This document shows, piece after piece, positions 38,351 to 62,207 of a stretch of 64,000 nt of DNA (its first letter is position 1; each line of letters starts with the position of its first letter). The notes beneath the pieces were generated by a model. That model had not been told where the DNA came from and searched no databases. It saw only the letters and a list, made by a program, of their open reading frames with translations. The translations under genes were made by a program, and so were the position numbers. This stretch comes from Aphelidium insulamus. Taxonomy: Eukaryota; Aphelidiomycota; Aphelidea; Aphelidiaceae. Where the stretch lies: positions 62,001-126,000 of the forward strand of contig JAZDSV010000035.1 in the NCBI GenBank assembly GCA_036784855.1, in the 5' to 3' direction.

Positions 38351-38791
38351 TCACCAGTCGGCCTCCTCGCTGATGGTGTAGTCGTCGTGGTCCAGCGAGT
38401 ACCGCATCTTGGCCATCACCACCTCTGTCATCTCTTCCACCCGCTCCAGGCCGAGTCTGAACGCGTCCAAAGCCGTCACGGTGCCTGCCATGTGCATGCA
38501 TGTGAGTCTACATGTGTGCCGTCCATCTAGATGGCACCACCACCAACCATCAGTCTGGATGCGCACGTGAATCTTGTTCTCGGACGGGTGTGGAATGGTG
38601 TAGGCACAGAATTCGACGCGTTCACTGGCGATGTATGCAGTTAGCACTCCCTCAGGGTACATATGACACGATACACACTCTTTCATGATGGCGTGCCGCA
38701 GTACATTGCCCAGCGTGTGATCTTCCCGATGTACGGCCAGTGTGACGCAGCTACCGGCCACACCGCCACCCGCATCCGTCGATATCTGCAT
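38351..38791 (-). CDS. POLR1D: RNA polymerase I/III subunit RPAC2 (AC19)
   Basis: Three exons on the minus strand, 38670-38791, 38548-38624 and 38351-38484, 110 residues. The alpha-CTD-like dimerisation signature is present: [19 protein letters not shown], then [20 protein letters not shown], then a C-terminal helix region ([13 protein letters not shown]). It is the small alpha-like subunit that pairs with RPAC1 in Pol I and Pol III. The first intron (46 nt, 38625-38669) contains a CTAAC branch site; reading through it is also open. This is the intact member of a duplicated pair; its decayed copy lies at 41511-41740. It sits 89 bp upstream of the CEP350-like gene on the same strand. Confidence 0.9.
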
Positions 38792-38987
38792 ATCAGCCAC
38801 ACCGTTAGCATATGTATGTACGTGTACAGCACGGAAGCACAAAGCAGCAGACAACTTGCAATCTCCAGCTGATCCATTTGCAGAATTGATTGCTCTTCTG
38901 GATCTGCCGCTTTTTCGTTCTGCACGCTCTGCGCGAAACAAGTACTCCGCCCGCGGCAGATTTCTTTAACGTGTAAACTATTTAATG

Positions 38988-39680
38988 CATATGATGGATG
39001 GTTGCCGGCTGAGACTAATGCTGGTCGCTCGGCGGCTGGTAGTTCTATAGTGGCCGATAGTGATTCATCGCTGTCAATTGCCCGCGCCAATGCTGTTGGC
39101 AATAGCGCCGAACAGCAAATGCAGATCGACTTGCTTTCCGTGCATGGTGCTAGTGTCGTGCACGATGCAACTCTCATGAACTCTCATTGTTGTGCGCCGC
39201 AAGCCGGCACGAAAGCATCGACTCGGACAGGTGGATACAGTCACCGAGGCACGTCTACATGACAACATGCTATCCAAGGAGGAGCGTCTCAGTTACTTTA
39301 ATGATGGGATTTCTGAGACCCTTACACTTCATTCGGAGGTACAGTCAATGTACGTCAACTAATTAAGCTAACCATTGTAGAAGTATGAATTAAGCTACTT
39401 GCGTATGCTATCCACTGCGCCTTTGGCATATGGAATTGAGGTGGAAGCATGGAGACGCGCCATCGGTGAATACAACCCGCTCAAACGATTCTTTGGTACG
39501 TTTATGTATAATATTCATATCTATTGAAGATGATGAGCCAGTCACTCCAGCCAAACGCAAAGCTATCGCGCAGGAGGCATGATTCCGCAACGATGACTAT
39601 GAGCCCATGGAAGTTGATAATATTTCAGCTGATGTGGGTTCCACCGCTGTGAAATTAACACTCACCACACAGACTACACG
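38988..39680 (+). pseudogene. REC8 pseudogene, truncated duplicate of 42150-44485
   Basis: Close to identical with 42731-43800 of the intact REC8 gene, including its introns and splice sites, but broken in several ways. It lacks the first three exons. An internal deletion removes about 390 bp, equivalent to 42919-43306. An in-frame TGA follows KRKAIAQEA where the intact gene continues. Homology stops near 39680, before the C-terminal winged-helix exons. It lies directly upstream of the intact POLR1D gene in the divergent orientation, mirroring copy B (broken POLR1D, intact REC8). It cannot make a kleisin. Confidence 0.88.
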
Positions 39681-40237
39681 CCGTACTCGTATCAAGATCC
39701 GATGGCGTGCATTCGCCAAACCGCCAAGTCGATCGCCTCCTGAAGAGCTACGACCGCGCCTTTGCCGCCATCTGCTTCGCGTTCTGATTTGCTGATTATC
39801 AAAAAATACCCAAACACAAAGTCTATGGCCTCAACGGCGCAAGAGTCTACAAATAAATTGACCTTTCTCGTTCTTGCTCTCTCTTTGAGCCTAAAAATAC
39901 ATTTAAATGACCAGTGTCGATGAGTATACACGTCAATGATGGTACGATTATGGCGACATATTACCAGGAGAAGGGACAAGAGCACAGGCGACAAAGTAGC
40001 ACGGCAGATACATCACCTTTAGCATTATGAAGAACTTGAACGAACAATTATATTACTTAATTTCTGTGACACTGGCGGCGGCACACTCCACAGCCAAGGA
40101 CTTAACCGGGCCGTCTTCCAGATATGCCAGGATCCGGAGGGCATCGGTCAAGTTACCCGGTCCGGATGCGCCAACTTGTTCCGTTGCTCGGCGCTAAAGC
40201 CAAGTTGCAAGCGCTCATATCAGCCAATCCAGAGGCT

Positions 40238-41017
40238 TCATACGACAGAATTCCGCCTCTTCCAAAGTGACGTGCCGCCCTTCATAGTGAGTCTGTGGTA
40301 AGCAGTGAGCGAAAGTTTCTGCATCGCCTCCAGCACCGCGGGCATCGTGGATGCATCGCCCTCGCGTAGGTCTTCCTCCATCTGGTGCGCGACGCGATCC
40401 AGCAGCGACTGCCGCGCCAAACAAGAGTCATATGCGGCACGGAGAAATTCCTCCATGTCCACGGGGCAACGGCGGCCTGAATTGCCCGATCTCCTCGGCG
40501 CGCTCCGATTTGGTCGAGTAAATCGTCATAGATGATTCCTCTTTGCCCAAAATTTCACACCAGTGTCGTCGCCGAGAGTACCTGATGGAATCAACTGCGA
40601 AAAACGGGTCTGCACCGAATTCCGAAACGAGTTGGGACATCGCGAAGGCGGATTTGGCCCGCTCTTTCTGGACATCGGCCAACTCTGCTCGCAACACAGT
40701 GATCTCGTCTCGTCGCGCAAGTCTCTCCGCCGCCAACTCTCCTGGCGCGCAAGTCTTTCCGCTGCCAACTCGTATCGCAACCCAGTGACCTCTTTCTGAT
40801 GTTTTTTTCTGTCTTTCCTGGCCTTCTTTCGCGTCTTCTTCAGCATGTCGTCAAACTTGTCAGACTGCTCATTAAATCGCCGAGTACAGTCAGCAGCCTC
40901 CGCCGCCAACTCCGCGCGCAGACCATCGATCTCTGCTTTTAGCGCGGCGACTTCCACCTGATAGTGTTCCTCTTCGGCTTCTAAGCGACTCTGCGGATCT
41001 CGTTGCAGACTCTGCAT
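40238..41017 (-). pseudogene. Decayed coiled-coil gene
   Basis: Minus-strand coding-like sequence from an ATG at 41017 (MQSLQRDPQSRLEAEEEHY) encodes a charged coiled coil with DDMLKKTRKKARKDRKKHQ. At 40728-40790 a 32-bp tandem duplication repeats ELAAERLAR in a different frame, shifting the reading frame. Continuing sections (DEITVLRAELADVQKERAK, then MEEFLRAAYDSCLARQSLL) lie in other frames with no plausible introns joining them. It is best read as a gene broken by small duplications and indels; an unrecognised splicing pattern is the alternative. The family is not recognised. The rest of 39681-41040 shows no other convincing gene. Confidence 0.45.
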
Positions 41018-41077
41018 ACGAACGAAAATATCAACAAACGTCAAATTCGCTGATTAGCAGAATTACAAAGCTTCCAA

Positions 41078-41242
41078 TTTACCATTCAACACATACCCTG
41101 GGACCAGAATGTGGTGGCCGATGCCTTGTCCAAGTATGACCCTGGACCGGCCATACTGCCAAAAGGACGCAACCTTCACACTTTCAATGGCGATTCCGAA
41201 ATGCTCATAGCTTCTACCATCTTATTGCGCCTGCTGACGTAG
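41078..41242 (+). mobile_element. Relic of a Ty3/gypsy-type retroelement (RNase H end)
   Basis: A short open stretch reads FTIQHIPWDQNVVADALSK, which closely resembles the C-terminal end of the RNase H domain of Ty3/gypsy polymerases, where the HIP-x-x-x-NVVADALS motif is typical. It ends at a TAG at 41240-41242. No integrase, protease or complete reverse transcriptase is present and no LTR pair was recognised, so this is a fossil fragment. A possible upstream RNase H start-like remnant near 39750-39850 is too degraded to claim. Confidence 0.6.
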
Positions 41243-41325
41243 CACCGCGCGATTTAGAGGCGGAGCGTCGAGATTTTCTAAATGTGGTACGCCGCGGCTA
41301 CCAAAACAATCGCCGCTGCCAAGGT

Positions 41326-41497
41326 CATACTCAAACTTGTCAACAGCAAATCAGTAAGTAGGTCTTCATTGGCATCCAGATTGAACTCTAATTATAAATA
41401 CGTCATCATGCATATCATGCCTTACCTGGCAGCTCTAGATCCTCAACAAATAGACCATGATATGTCAAGTATACTCAAACTTGTCAACAGCAAATCA
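41326..41497. repeat. Pair of identical 20+ bp direct repeats
   Basis: The words CTCAAACTTGTCAACAG and GCAAATCA occur together twice, at about 41328-41353 and 41472-41497, 144 bp apart. The pair sits beside the breakpoint where the duplicated POLR1D fragment stops matching. It may mark a rearrangement or an insertion footprint. Confidence 0.6.
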
Positions 41498-41510
41498 ACA
41501 GCAAGATCTT

Positions 41511-41740
41511 CTTGATGTACAGCCAGTGTGATGCTGCTACTGGCCACGCGGCCACCTGCATCTGTCAATATCTGCATATCAGCCGCATTGTTAGCATATG
41601 AATGGGTACAAAATGGTCACACAATGCGGCAAGCAACTTGCAATCTCCAGCTGATCCATTTGCACCACTCTTAATCTGATGCTTTTTTGTTCTGCACTTT
41701 TTACACAAAACAAGTACTGTGGCTGCTGGCAAGATTTCGC
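41511..41740 (-). pseudogene. POLR1D pseudogene fragment (5' end only)
   Basis: The minus strand repeats the first roughly 27 codons of POLR1D exon 1 from an ATG at 41577 (MQILTDAGG..., then ITLAVHQED), plus about 150 bp of its upstream region. It diverges from 38726-38940 by scattered substitutions. Homology ends abruptly right after the HQED codons, so exons 2 and 3 are missing. The fragment lies upstream of the intact REC8 gene in the same divergent arrangement seen in copy A. Confidence 0.87.
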
Positions 41741-41925
41741 TGAAGTATGTGTACTTAATAGATATGCATATTTGCCGCAGATGTGCAAAGTATAACATTC
41801 CATCAACGTTTAATCAAGTTGAAGCTGCAGCACAAGGATAAAGTTCAATTCGCCTAGAACTGCACATTCAAAGCAACAATGTAATGTTAGCTGTTTGGCG
41901 GATCGTGAAACAGAGAGGAATAAAG

Positions 41926-42040
41926 AAAGAAGAGGAGAGACGAAAGAATAAAGATGAAAGATAAAAGATGAAACCGAAAGAAAAAGAAGGGGCTAATTAA
42001 TAAAAGAATGGAAGAAAGAAAGAAGAAAGAAAGAAAGAAA

Positions 42041-42076
<36 letters not shown>

Positions 42077-42094
42077 GAAGGAAGGAAGAAGAAA

Positions 42095-42126
<32 letters not shown>
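41926..42126. repeat. GAAA/GAAG purine microsatellite upstream of REC8
   Basis: About 200 bp of near-pure purine on the + strand, dominated by GAAA units with GAAG interruptions, ends 24 bp before the REC8 ATG at 42150. The interval 41741-41925 shows nothing else. Such tracts can form triplex DNA and vary in length; an effect on REC8 expression is possible but not shown. Confidence 0.9.
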
Positions 42127-42128
<2 letters not shown>

Positions 42129-42149
42129 TTATTCTCACTCCGCGCATCA

Positions 42150-44485
42150 ATGTTCTACTCAAAAGACATCTTGACGCGCAAGCAAGGCGGACTGGGTGTT
42201 GTGTGGCTTGCTGCAACATTGGGTGAACGCGGCCACGGTCACAGACGCCTGACCAAGCGTGACTATGCAACAGTTGACGTTGTTGAGGCGTGGTATGTTG
42301 TATTGTTCACCAGCTTCTGTTTACACGCTTTAACGTACAGCAACTTTCTGGCAGAGCCCCCGGAGCCGATGGCACTGCGATTGTCTAGTAATCTGCTAGT
42401 AGGCGTGTCGCGTGTCTTTCAACACCAGTACCAGTGCTACATGAGTACGTGTATGACTATTGTCATCTAGGTGTAACAGATGACGGACACGCAGCCGATG
42501 TGCAACAAGTATTTATGCACGTGAAACGCAATCTCTACGCCGCATCCTCAGAGGAGGTCACGATGGCGTGTCCACAGGCTCGCATTGATGTCATCACCCT
42601 TCAACTGGAGACTGGCACGGGTCTGCTGGACTCGGCGATGGATCCAGATGCAACAATCAGTGTATGTTACACCTTTTCACTATCAAAACAACCATTGCCT
42701 TTAGACGGAAGAGCTGGCCAGGCGCGTTCAGCTTGGATGGTTGCCGGCCGCGACTAATGCTGATGCCTCGGCGGCTGGTAATTCTATAGTGGCCGATAGA
42801 GATTCATCGCTGTCGGTTGCCCGCGCCAATGCTGTTGGCAATAGCGCCGAACAGCAAACGCAGATCGACTTGCTTTCCATGCATGATGCTAGTGTCGTGC
42901 ACGATGCAACTCTCATGAAGGATTTCGACGGTGACATTGATGCAACAAGTGTGCTGGGCAATTACACCAATGTCACATCGGTCACGTCGCGCGCAGCTCC
43001 GCAGTCATTTGCCGCTCGCGGTCTCGTTACTTCATCGCGTCTCGAGTCCGAACTGGCGCTGATGGAGAATGACTTTGACAATGAGCTGACCATGGGTGAT
43101 TTTTCTATAAGCATTGTCGCGGGACTCGATGGCGCGCAGAACAACTCCAAGTCTAGTAGTAGCACGCATTTGGACATGTCGGCTGCAACTGCCTTGGCGT
43201 CCAATTCGACATCATCATCCGCCGAGTCCGTGCTGGGCTCTTTTGCGGATGATTTCAATGGACAAGGCAATGCTGATCTTGCGGTCGCGCCGACAGCCAG
43301 TAATATTGTTGTGCGCCGCAAGCAGGCACGAAAGCATCGACTCGGACAGGTGGATACAGTCACCGAGGCCCGCTTGCATGACAACATGCTATCCAAGGAG
43401 GAGCGCCTCGGTTACTTTAATGATGGGATTTCTGAGACCCTTACACTTCATTCCGAGGTACAGTCGATGTACGTCAACTAATTAAGATTACCATTGTAGA
43501 AGTGTGAATTGAGCTACTTGCGTATGCTATCCACTGCGCCTTTGGCATATGGAATTGAGGTGGAAGCATGGAGACGCGCCATCGGTGAAAACAACCCGCT
43601 CAAACGATTCTTTGGTACGTTTATGTATATTTTACATTCTAGTCTAAGCGATTGAAGATGATGAGCCAGTCACTCCAGCCAAACGCAAAGCTATCGCGCG
43701 GGCGGCATCATTCCGCAACGATGACTATGAGCCCATGGATGTTGATAATAATGCAGCTGATGTGGGTTCCGTCTCTGTTAATTTAACGCTCACCATACAG
43801 ACTACGACGTCGTCGATCGAAGTGGCCCGAGCTGCGGTTCATACTCCACTGGAGCGCAAACGTGGCAGCATACCGTGGAAAACTGGCATATACTCTGCGG
43901 ACCGCAGTTCCAGCTCTGCCCTGCCAGCACAATCGGCGGAATATGCACCGTCGATGAATATGGCAATGAGCAGTGTCACCACCCCGCCCGCTACTCCAGT
44001 AGCAGAGCGCAGCTTGGGGTCAGATGGAAGTCACCGCTCCTCATTGGGACAGTCCGAGATGAATTTGGACGACTGTTTGGACGAAGCAGCTGCGATGGAT
44101 TTCTATCGCGTGCAACAGCTGGATATGGGCAACATTTCCCAGACACAATTGAACACTCAGGAATTTGCACAGCAGGATACTGCCGACTTTTACAGGTGAA
44201 ATTGTGTTTAGCTTGTGCTTAGCTTGGTATTAATCTAACTTGGTAAGTTATGCGTGCAATATTACGTCCATGAAGAAAAAGGAGCGGCTGAACTTTGACG
44301 ATGATTTACTGGAAAAAAACACGTCACGCGGGATTGCATGTGAAGCATTTTACCACCTTCTTGGTGCGTAGTATGGCTATATATGTGCAATAGCTAAAAG
44401 GGCCTACTTAGAGCTGACCAGTGTCGGAAAGCTGCAAGTTATCCAACCACAGCCATTTGGCCCCATTTCGATTGCATGCATTTGA
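42150..44485 (+). CDS. REC8: Meiotic cohesin kleisin REC8
   Basis: Eight exons, 42150-42292, 42341-42444, 42471-42661, 42705-43457, 43500-43614, 43658-44195, 44248-44363 and 44412-44485, 677 residues. The N-terminal Rad21/Rec8 domain (MFYSKDILTRKQGGLGVVWL, TKRDYATVDVVEACNFLAE, SSNLLVGVSRVFQHQYQCY) binds SMC3. The C-terminal winged helix (EAFYHLLELTSVGKLQVIQP then PFGPISI) binds SMC1. The long middle is acidic/Ser-rich and would hold separase sites. The WLAA and TKR features favour REC8 over RAD21, though RAD21 remains possible. Its presence implies a meiotic programme. Exon 3 follows a 26-nt interval (42445-42470), unusually short for an intron here. A broken copy lies at 38988-39680. Confidence 0.82.
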
Positions 44486-47308: not shown

Positions 47309-48757
47309 CTATTGCTGTAGTATTCTTGTCAACAGCTCTTGAAGGTTGTTGGGATTATGCGACTTCACCCATTGCAGTACTTGCAGTCGGTAAGGGGTAG
47401 GATAGCCTGGGCAGCTCATCACACTAATGCAGCGCTGCTTGTCCCAGGGAATGCCAGCTGCATGCAGCGCCTCCATAGTCTCTATCTGGCCGTGGATGAC
47501 GGCGGTGAAGAAGGTTTCCTTGCCGCACGGGCAACTCTGGGAGCGGGCATAGTTCAACATTTCCAAATCGCCGCGCATCGCAGCCCGGATGCACGTGTCT
47601 TCATCGCGCGGACAGCCATTCTCAAGCGCGTACTCTAAAATCTCCATGTGACCACCAATTGCCGCTTGCTTGCAGGTGTTGACATCCCAGGGAAATCCTT
47701 TGCTACGTGCCCAGTCGAGCATCTCCAAATCATTCCTGCCAGCCAGTGCGGCACAAGTAGATGTATCGCGCGGGCAATTTTTCTCTAACGCCCACTCCAT
47801 AACCTTTTTGCGTCCGTAGTAAGCTGCAGTGTAAAAATCTTGCGTTGTTAATGCAGCGCCATCTCGCACCAAGGCCTTCAACGTTTTCAGCTGTTTCTCG
47901 CTCGCCGCTTTTTCGCAGGGGTCGATTCCAGTTGACGCTGTATTTGGCTTTGCCCGCTCCATTGATACTTCCGCCTCGGATGACGGCCCTTCACTCATCT
48001 CGGGTTCACGTGAGGTATTTGGTATGGTTTGTTCCGGGTCACCTTCAGGGTCACCGGCCAGTGGAGCAGAGCTTCCAGGCGCACCATTAGCCATTACCGC
48101 ATCATCAGTTGTTATTGGCGGCCCTTCACTCATCTCGGGTTCACGTGAGGTATTTGGTATGGTTCGTTCCGGGTCACCTTCAGGGTCACCGGCCAGTGGA
48201 GCAGAGCTTCCAGGCGCACCATTAGCCATTACCGCATCATCAGTTGTTATTGTAGAGTCCGTATTTGTAGCATAGCCTGGAATCAATGCCGCATTCGAGA
48301 GTAATGCCTCGCCGAGGAAGCCATCGCGCGAATTTCCACTTCCACTGCAAGGATGACACGACGCCCTTCGCCCAAATTTCATTCGACACCACTGGATAAA
48401 CTGGGCAATCTTTTGTTGCACCTGCGAATTGCGCATCTGGATGCGGCGGCGGCGACTAGGTGCGCCGAATTGCGTATAGTAATCTTCACGCGTGGGCCAG
48501 GATTCTCCCCACTGAATTAGATCCTCATCAGTTGTCGGCAAATAATCGGTGTTAATGCACACACGGACACGGCCATCCGACGTGGCGTAGTAGTGGTCAT
48601 TGCGCCTCATATCATCGTCCGATAGTAGAGGCTTTGCCGCCGGGTCCACAGATCGTTCCCGTGACCACGGCCATGGAATTGTTGGCGCCGCATGAGCCAG
48701 CAGAAGTAGGTCATGTACAGCTGCGATAAATAATGCCGTGTTCAATACTACGTGCAT
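47309..48757 (-). CDS. Signal-peptide ankyrin-repeat protein 1
   Basis: Single exon on the minus strand, 482 residues. A signal peptide (MHVVLNTALFIAAVHDLLLL) is followed by a non-repetitive segment of about 150 residues. Next come two near-identical 45-residue repeats, then six or so ankyrin repeats of the form CPxDxxTCxxAAxxGxLExLxYA (for example KGFPWDVNTCKQAAIGGHME and NGCPRDEDTCIRAAMRGDLE). Intracellular repeats of this style expand in amoebae, oomycetes and large DNA viruses, but they normally lack signal peptides. Family members also occur at 48986-49867 and 61054-61998, always on the minus strand and with signal peptides. Function unknown; secretion or a luminal location is inferred. 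Confidence 0.8.
   Translation of the reverse strand: MHVVLNTALFIAAVHDLLLLAHAAPTIPWPWSRERSVDPAAKPLLSDDDMRRNDHYYATSDGRVRVCINTDYLPTTDEDLIQWGESWPTREDYYTQFGAPSRRRRIQMRNSQVQQKIAQFIQWCRMKFGRRASCHPCSGSGNSRDGFLGEALLSNAALIPGYATNTDSTITTDDAVMANGAPGSSAPLAGDPEGDPERTIPNTSREPEMSEGPPITTDDAVMANGAPGSSAPLAGDPEGDPEQTIPNTSREPEMSEGPSSEAEVSMERAKPNTASTGIDPCEKAASEKQLKTLKALVRDGAALTTQDFYTAAYYGRKKVMEWALEKNCPRDTSTCAALAGRNDLEMLDWARSKGFPWDVNTCKQAAIGGHMEILEYALENGCPRDEDTCIRAAMRGDLEMLNYARSQSCPCGKETFFTAVIHGQIETMEALHAAGIPWDKQRCISVMSCPGYPTPYRLQVLQWVKSHNPNNLQELLTRILQQ
47985..48252. repeat. Two-copy 135-bp tandem repeat inside ankyrin gene 1
   Basis: Two head-to-tail 135-bp units differ at only one or two positions (one changes Gln to Arg). 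Being 45 codons long, the unit keeps the reading frame and encodes an acidic Gly/Pro/Ser-rich segment (DDAVMANGAPGSSAPLAG...). Near identity at synonymous sites indicates recent duplication or homogenisation. Confidence 0.95.
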
Positions 48758-57013: not shown

Positions 57014-57066
57014 GTAGGACTAATCTAGGGAGGACTCGAGCCCTCGACGGAGAGCGGAGGACTCGC
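57014..57066 (+). repeat. Left terminal inverted repeat
   Basis: 53-bp TIR starting GTAGGACTAATC. It differs from the reverse complement of the right TIR at two adjacent positions (GC against TT within the GGAGAxxGGAGG portion). Confidence 0.9.
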
Positions 57067-58342: not shown

Positions 58343-58395
58343 GCGAGTCCTCCAATCTCCGTCGAGGGCTCGAGTCCTCCCTAGATTAGTCCTAC
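58343..58395 (-). repeat. Right terminal inverted repeat
   Basis: 53-bp TIR in inverse orientation to 57014-57066. Just inside it, the right end carries an extra segment relative to the left before a further shared GGCGGCGTTGC word. Confidence 0.9.
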
Positions 58396-61998: not shown

Positions 61999-62207
61999 CG
62001 TTTATGAAATTGTCGGTTTAACCAGTGAGAAAACGAAAACATTTATACCAATCGAGTTATACCAATCAGGGGTTCGTATGAGCCTGCTGATTGGATGGTC
62101 AACGAAATTGTAACTGTTCTCTAATTGGCCAGGCCATATGAGTTGGAACCATGCCTCTCTATTGTTGGTATTGTTGTAAATTGGTGGTGAATGTGAAAAA
62201 CTGCTGG

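Follow-up and report, generated by a model that had tools for sequence, protein, structure and literature searches.

Part of one published account (PMC3449122) presents partial gene duplication with breakpoints inside genes as a known kind of event, and part of another (PMC3924818) describes interlocus gene conversion between duplicates as a known process. Among the titles and abstract openings listed for literature on POLR1D with REC8, on divergent pairs with tandem duplication, and on partial duplication, we found no case like the one described here. The locus lies in a window of 64,000 nucleotides, the whole stretch of DNA analyzed (positions 62,001 to 126,000 of contig JAZDSV010000035.1 of Aphelidium insulamus; assembly 18 Mb, 169 contigs; GC 54%), where parts of a divergent POLR1D-REC8 pair occur twice in tandem (Table 1). 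Beyond it, a gene from position 45041 matches fungal RIX7 (among the best 120 of 7998 matches, identity is at most 70% and the named ones are mostly fungal), and a protein search with a 682-aa ORF near this gene returned zero matches. A close relative was absent among the matches listed for the RIX7 and REC8 proteins, which point to a probably early-diverging fungus. Elsewhere in the window, a 135-bp unit is repeated in tandem at 47981-48252 (98.5% identity, one open frame per strand throughout), and a 53-bp inverted repeat with 96% identity occupies 57014-57066 and 58343-58395, 1.3 kb apart.

Table 1. Features of the duplicated POLR1D-REC8 locus (positions within the window).
Feature	Position	Strand	Basis or remark
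POLR1D (RPAC2/AC19), intact copy A	38351..38877	-	PF13656; best solved relatives RPAC2
Duplicated POLR1D 5' half and upstream DNA, copy A	38719..38994		BLAST to 41505-41738; aligned to 41767
REC8 pseudogene, copy A	38995..39684	+	Blocks 38995-39180 and 39186-39684; self-BLAST, alignment
DNA common to neither copy, 1.8 kb	39685..41504		No POLR1D 3' or REC8 3' relic established
Decayed stretch	40315..40585		Two pieces common to C123 (89% and 76%); BLAST
Presumed Ty3/gypsy pol fragment, 326 bp	40997..41322	+	93-94% to three other genome places, 73-77% to three more
27-bp perfect direct repeat	41327..41497	+	41327-41353 and 41471-41497; self-BLAST; beside copy-B boundary
POLR1D 5' fragment and upstream DNA, copy B	41505..41767	-	Self-BLAST, alignment
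Purine-rich repeat, 93% A+G	41909..42127	+	Self-BLAST; just 5' of REC8 start
REC8, intact copy B	42150..44485	+	Spliced 677-aa model with stop; open model, domains, relatives

The POLR1D gene of copy A is intact over its domain, with PF13656 (RNA_pol_L_2) scoring 70.5 bits; exon 2 starts at 38785 (plus-strand coordinate), and the candidate first exon at 38833-38877 is uncertain. Among solved relatives, its product is closer to RPAC2/AC19 (E 9e-13) than to RPB11 (E 8e-6). One RNA_pol_L_2 gene was found elsewhere in the genome, on contig C130, with E 4e-11 to RPB11 versus 0.03 to RPAC2; judged by its best solved relatives it is RPB11-like. The REC8 of copy A is a pseudogene, in which CTCTC (39181-39185) stands for 385 nt of copy B (42920-43304), resulting in a frameshift, and TGA occupies 39580-39582 in place of the TCA of B; REC8-A also lacks its 5' part, which corresponds to about 41768-42733 of B, and its 3' part. 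Copy B carries an open REC8 model with seven introns and a stop at 44483-44485, the last two introns having been picked among seven open alternatives. Rad21_Rec8_N at its N-terminus and Rad21_Rec8 at its C-terminus both score above cut-off, and thus both kleisin end domains are present. A protein search gave 15 matches, fungal where named and including named REC8, the best being from Endogone and Mortierella. The POLR1D of copy B retains 67 nt of exon 2 together with the stretch corresponding to the presumed first exon. These models agree with the earlier note, which had assigned an intact POLR1D and a deleted, stop-containing REC8 to copy A, and an intact REC8 and a POLR1D 5' fragment to copy B. 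Genome searches for further copies of either gene, which scored just their best candidates, yielded no other REC8, all 8 REC8 protein matches falling at this locus; the REC8-B search found no RAD21 paralogue outside the locus either, probably reflecting a limit of the search.

Self-BLAST of the window revealed three collinear blocks on a single strand, in the same order and orientation: 38719-38964 with 41505-41738 (76.6% over 248 columns, E 1e-45), 38995-39180 with 42734-42919 (93.5%, E 4e-77), and 39186-39684 with 43305-43813 (91.6%, E 0). The similarity includes introns and upstream DNA, and the POLR1D-type upstream DNA of copy A reaches as far as the REC8 block, which bears out the earlier proposal that a divergent pair was copied in tandem. 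Since both REC8 introns within the copied part are present in A, the copying took place at the DNA level and not by retroposition, also as proposed. The similarity ends inside both genes; REC8-A and POLR1D-B each lack the 3' end, in both cases on the side turned toward the new junction.

We explain this arrangement, with moderate confidence, by a single partial tandem duplication with breakpoints in both genes, followed by decay and probable conversion. In an ancestor with a single divergent pair, POLR1D on the minus and REC8 on the plus strand, a segment of ~2.3 kb (41505-43813 in copy-B terms) would have been copied in tandem at the DNA level, with the left breakpoint within POLR1D exon 2 and the right one within REC8 exon 6. 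The expected product from left to right is a whole POLR1D, a 3'-truncated REC8, the junction, a 3'-truncated POLR1D, and a whole REC8, and the gene order seen is the one predicted. The broken copies would thus have been broken at birth, with no working gene lost. Two deletions in REC8-A would have followed, the 1.8 kb of other DNA including the gypsy pol fragment would have come to the junction afterwards, and gene conversion from REC8-B probably replaced part of REC8-A. Because breakpoints in both genes yield the facing truncations directly, two full pairs with subsequent losses are unneeded and fewer steps are required.

The DNA between the copies had been described in the earlier note as holding a decayed coiled-coil gene and as pointing to transposon-mediated rearrangement. 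The gene so described is a decayed stretch whose DNA recurs in two pieces in C123; two of its ORFs, used as protein queries, gave matches in the window only. The pol fragment, which we take to be Ty3/gypsy from a motif and from the earlier note, differs by about 6% from its family, with 19 substitutions and one deletion private to it, and its three nearest relatives are 98-99% alike among themselves. BLAST found no remaining parts of the element beside it, and therefore the piece is a fragment. A second gypsy lineage in the genome, represented by L005 (C142) and L006 (C1), is about 71-75% identical to the window's fragment, and its two copies are 98.7% alike over 1.8 kb. The transposon claim is not supported: the piece is internal to pol, and its divergence lies below the 22% of the POLR1D copies and nearer to that of the REC8 copies. 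Nothing in these comparisons indicates that the gypsy fragment caused or drove the duplication. The 27-bp direct repeat and the repeat-like 5 nt inserted where REC8-A has its deletion are reminiscent of error-prone end joining.

Copies A and B differ at 58/261 sites (22%) in the POLR1D block and at 12/186 and 34/499 sites in the REC8 blocks (6.5-6.8%). The inequality appears both in exons (18/112 for POLR1D versus 38/609 for REC8, p 0.0016) and in noncoding DNA (28/120 versus 8/76, p 0.024), with odds ratios of 2.2-2.9 by site class. None of the 19 copy-A CpGs of the POLR1D block is kept in B (15 have become TG or CA) and none of the five copy-B CpGs is kept in A; 36 of the 49 copy-B CpGs are kept in the REC8 blocks. 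The lowest observed/expected CpG of the window (0.58-0.60, versus a median of 1.03) falls at 41251-42000, over the dead POLR1D fragment, in the 500-bp segments from 41251 and 41501. We nevertheless rejected CpG decay as an explanation for how strongly the POLR1D copies diverge, because non-CpG sites are raised too: significantly when pooled (26/188 versus 28/578, p 1e-4; without the upstream part 14/133 versus 28/578, p 0.022), but not by class (exons 8/90 versus 22/510, p 0.11; noncoding 17/98 versus 6/68, p 0.17). A spread of silencing from the transposon is unsupported, since the gypsy fragment keeps 21/24, 21/25, and 22/25 CpGs of its three nearest relatives. Coding differences between REC8-A and REC8-B are distributed over codon positions 1/2/3 as 10/14/14 (third position, 14/38), with no third-position excess, and those of POLR1D exon 2 as 4/2/5, in a record whose older part gene conversion would wipe. 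The codon counts thus give no sign of selection on REC8-A, which after conversion would be valid just for the time since, and for that reason 10/14/14 does not prove that REC8-A died at birth.

The earlier note had interpreted the locus as reciprocal loss, in which two full divergent pairs later lost opposite partners. That portions of each gene were copied along with introns fits such a history, but independent losses would have had to strike precisely the ends that face each other, with no recognizable trace left, and neither copy was found to hold remains of the two genes in full. A candidate continuation of POLR1D-B at 40228-40299 had a score reached in 1/300 block shuffles and 5/500 dinucleotide shuffles under strict scoring; it was dropped, as its score was matched or exceeded in 21 of 174 overlapping control windows. 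In relic searches over other lengths, the score was reached in 2/300 shuffles for the short stretch 40000-40300, and in 103/300 (39685-40330, looser scoring) and 162/300 shuffles for longer ones. The search for a relic of the REC8 3' end in 39685-41504 gave a best E of 0.36, and the insert matched 41739-42733 weakly and in opposite orientation (E 0.005). Very old relics of the missing ends, decayed beyond recognition, would escape such searches, to the benefit of the loss history; the absence of a third-position excess between REC8-A and B counts against it, in a record that conversion could have erased. We consider reciprocal loss improbable: the breaks more likely arose from the copying than from later losses, as an ordinary genome accident.

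The unequal divergence of the two halves counts against one event, as it exceeds what a single duplication would predict. If a small piece at the POLR1D 5' end had been copied in tandem long ago, and a patchwork including REC8 pieces and the gypsy fragment had later been inserted between the copies, this would accommodate the 22% versus 6.5-6.8%, the REC8-like distance of the gypsy fragment from its family, the internal nature of both the REC8 and the gypsy pieces, and the short repeats at the junctions (CTCTC at 39181-39185 and the 27-bp repeat near 41505). Such an insertion, however, would have had to hit the older tandem junction exactly, and its REC8 pieces keep parental order and orientation beside POLR1D upstream DNA. 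The C123-like piece, at 76-89% identity, is also not ~6% different, with the qualification that C123 may not be its source. This two-event history merits somewhat more credence than reciprocal loss, while remaining unlikely. An assembly artefact, such as two haplotypes set end to end, is very improbable: divergence between the copies is 7-22%, deletions private to one copy and a frameshift set them apart, 1.8 kb of DNA between them is unshared, and the flanks have no second copy in the self-BLAST of the window.

The uneven divergence could be explained either by a later overwriting of REC8-A from REC8-B or by pieces of different age, and we favor conversion because the geometry favors one event, namely the single partial duplication. 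A two-rate fit over all blocks placed 32/609 differences inside 39029-39642 and 71/333 outside, with the low block lying within REC8. The tail after 39600, which was picked post hoc, had 12/85 differences versus 26/524 at other REC8 exon sites (p 0.003), and 8/73 versus 14/437 at non-CpG sites (p 0.007). Permutation tests for a tract in REC8 alone gave p 0.034 with one change point and 2000 shuffles, and p 0.04 with 100 shuffles; in a finer scan with 500 shuffles, p was 0.024 for exons, 0.14 when all sites were used, 0.26 when the last 10 were dropped, and 0.40 for non-CpG exon sites. A conversion tract inside REC8 is suggested by the shape of the differences but is not robust.

The intact POLR1D now has about 109 bp of upstream DNA up to the REC8 fragment, and 484 bp, including a 219-bp purine stretch, separate the candidate start of the POLR1D fragment from the REC8 start codon in copy B. 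Each gene thus has its own upstream region, and the duplication possibly separated a putative shared promoter. A 30-bp block spanning the candidate start of POLR1D (38853-38882, 41635-41664) is identical in the two copies, with 0/30 differences versus 57/227 elsewhere (permutation p 0.04). As a speculative and improbable extension, a putative bidirectional promoter between housekeeping POLR1D and meiotic REC8 might have been split in one step with no function lost, whereby REC8 would gain a control region of its own, including the purine-rich repeat, and a dead POLR1D 5' end with its unchanged 30-bp block would stay in the REC8 promoter. The locus exemplifies how a head-to-head pair could be uncoupled by a single short tandem duplication with neither gene lost, and cautions against inferring reciprocal loss too readily from facing truncations; it is of little wider importance unless REC8 control was changed by the promoter split.

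Relative to interlocus gene conversion (PMC3924818), the locus is alike in that divergence varies along the copies and reaches its minimum in the middle of REC8, and differs in the weak statistical support obtained within REC8 by itself. With partial gene duplication, as presented in part of PMC3449122, it shares a DNA-mediated origin, disregard of gene boundaries, and a truncated copy beside a whole one. In contrast to that system, both ends of the segment here appear to lie in genes, and two genes are each present as one whole and one truncated copy.
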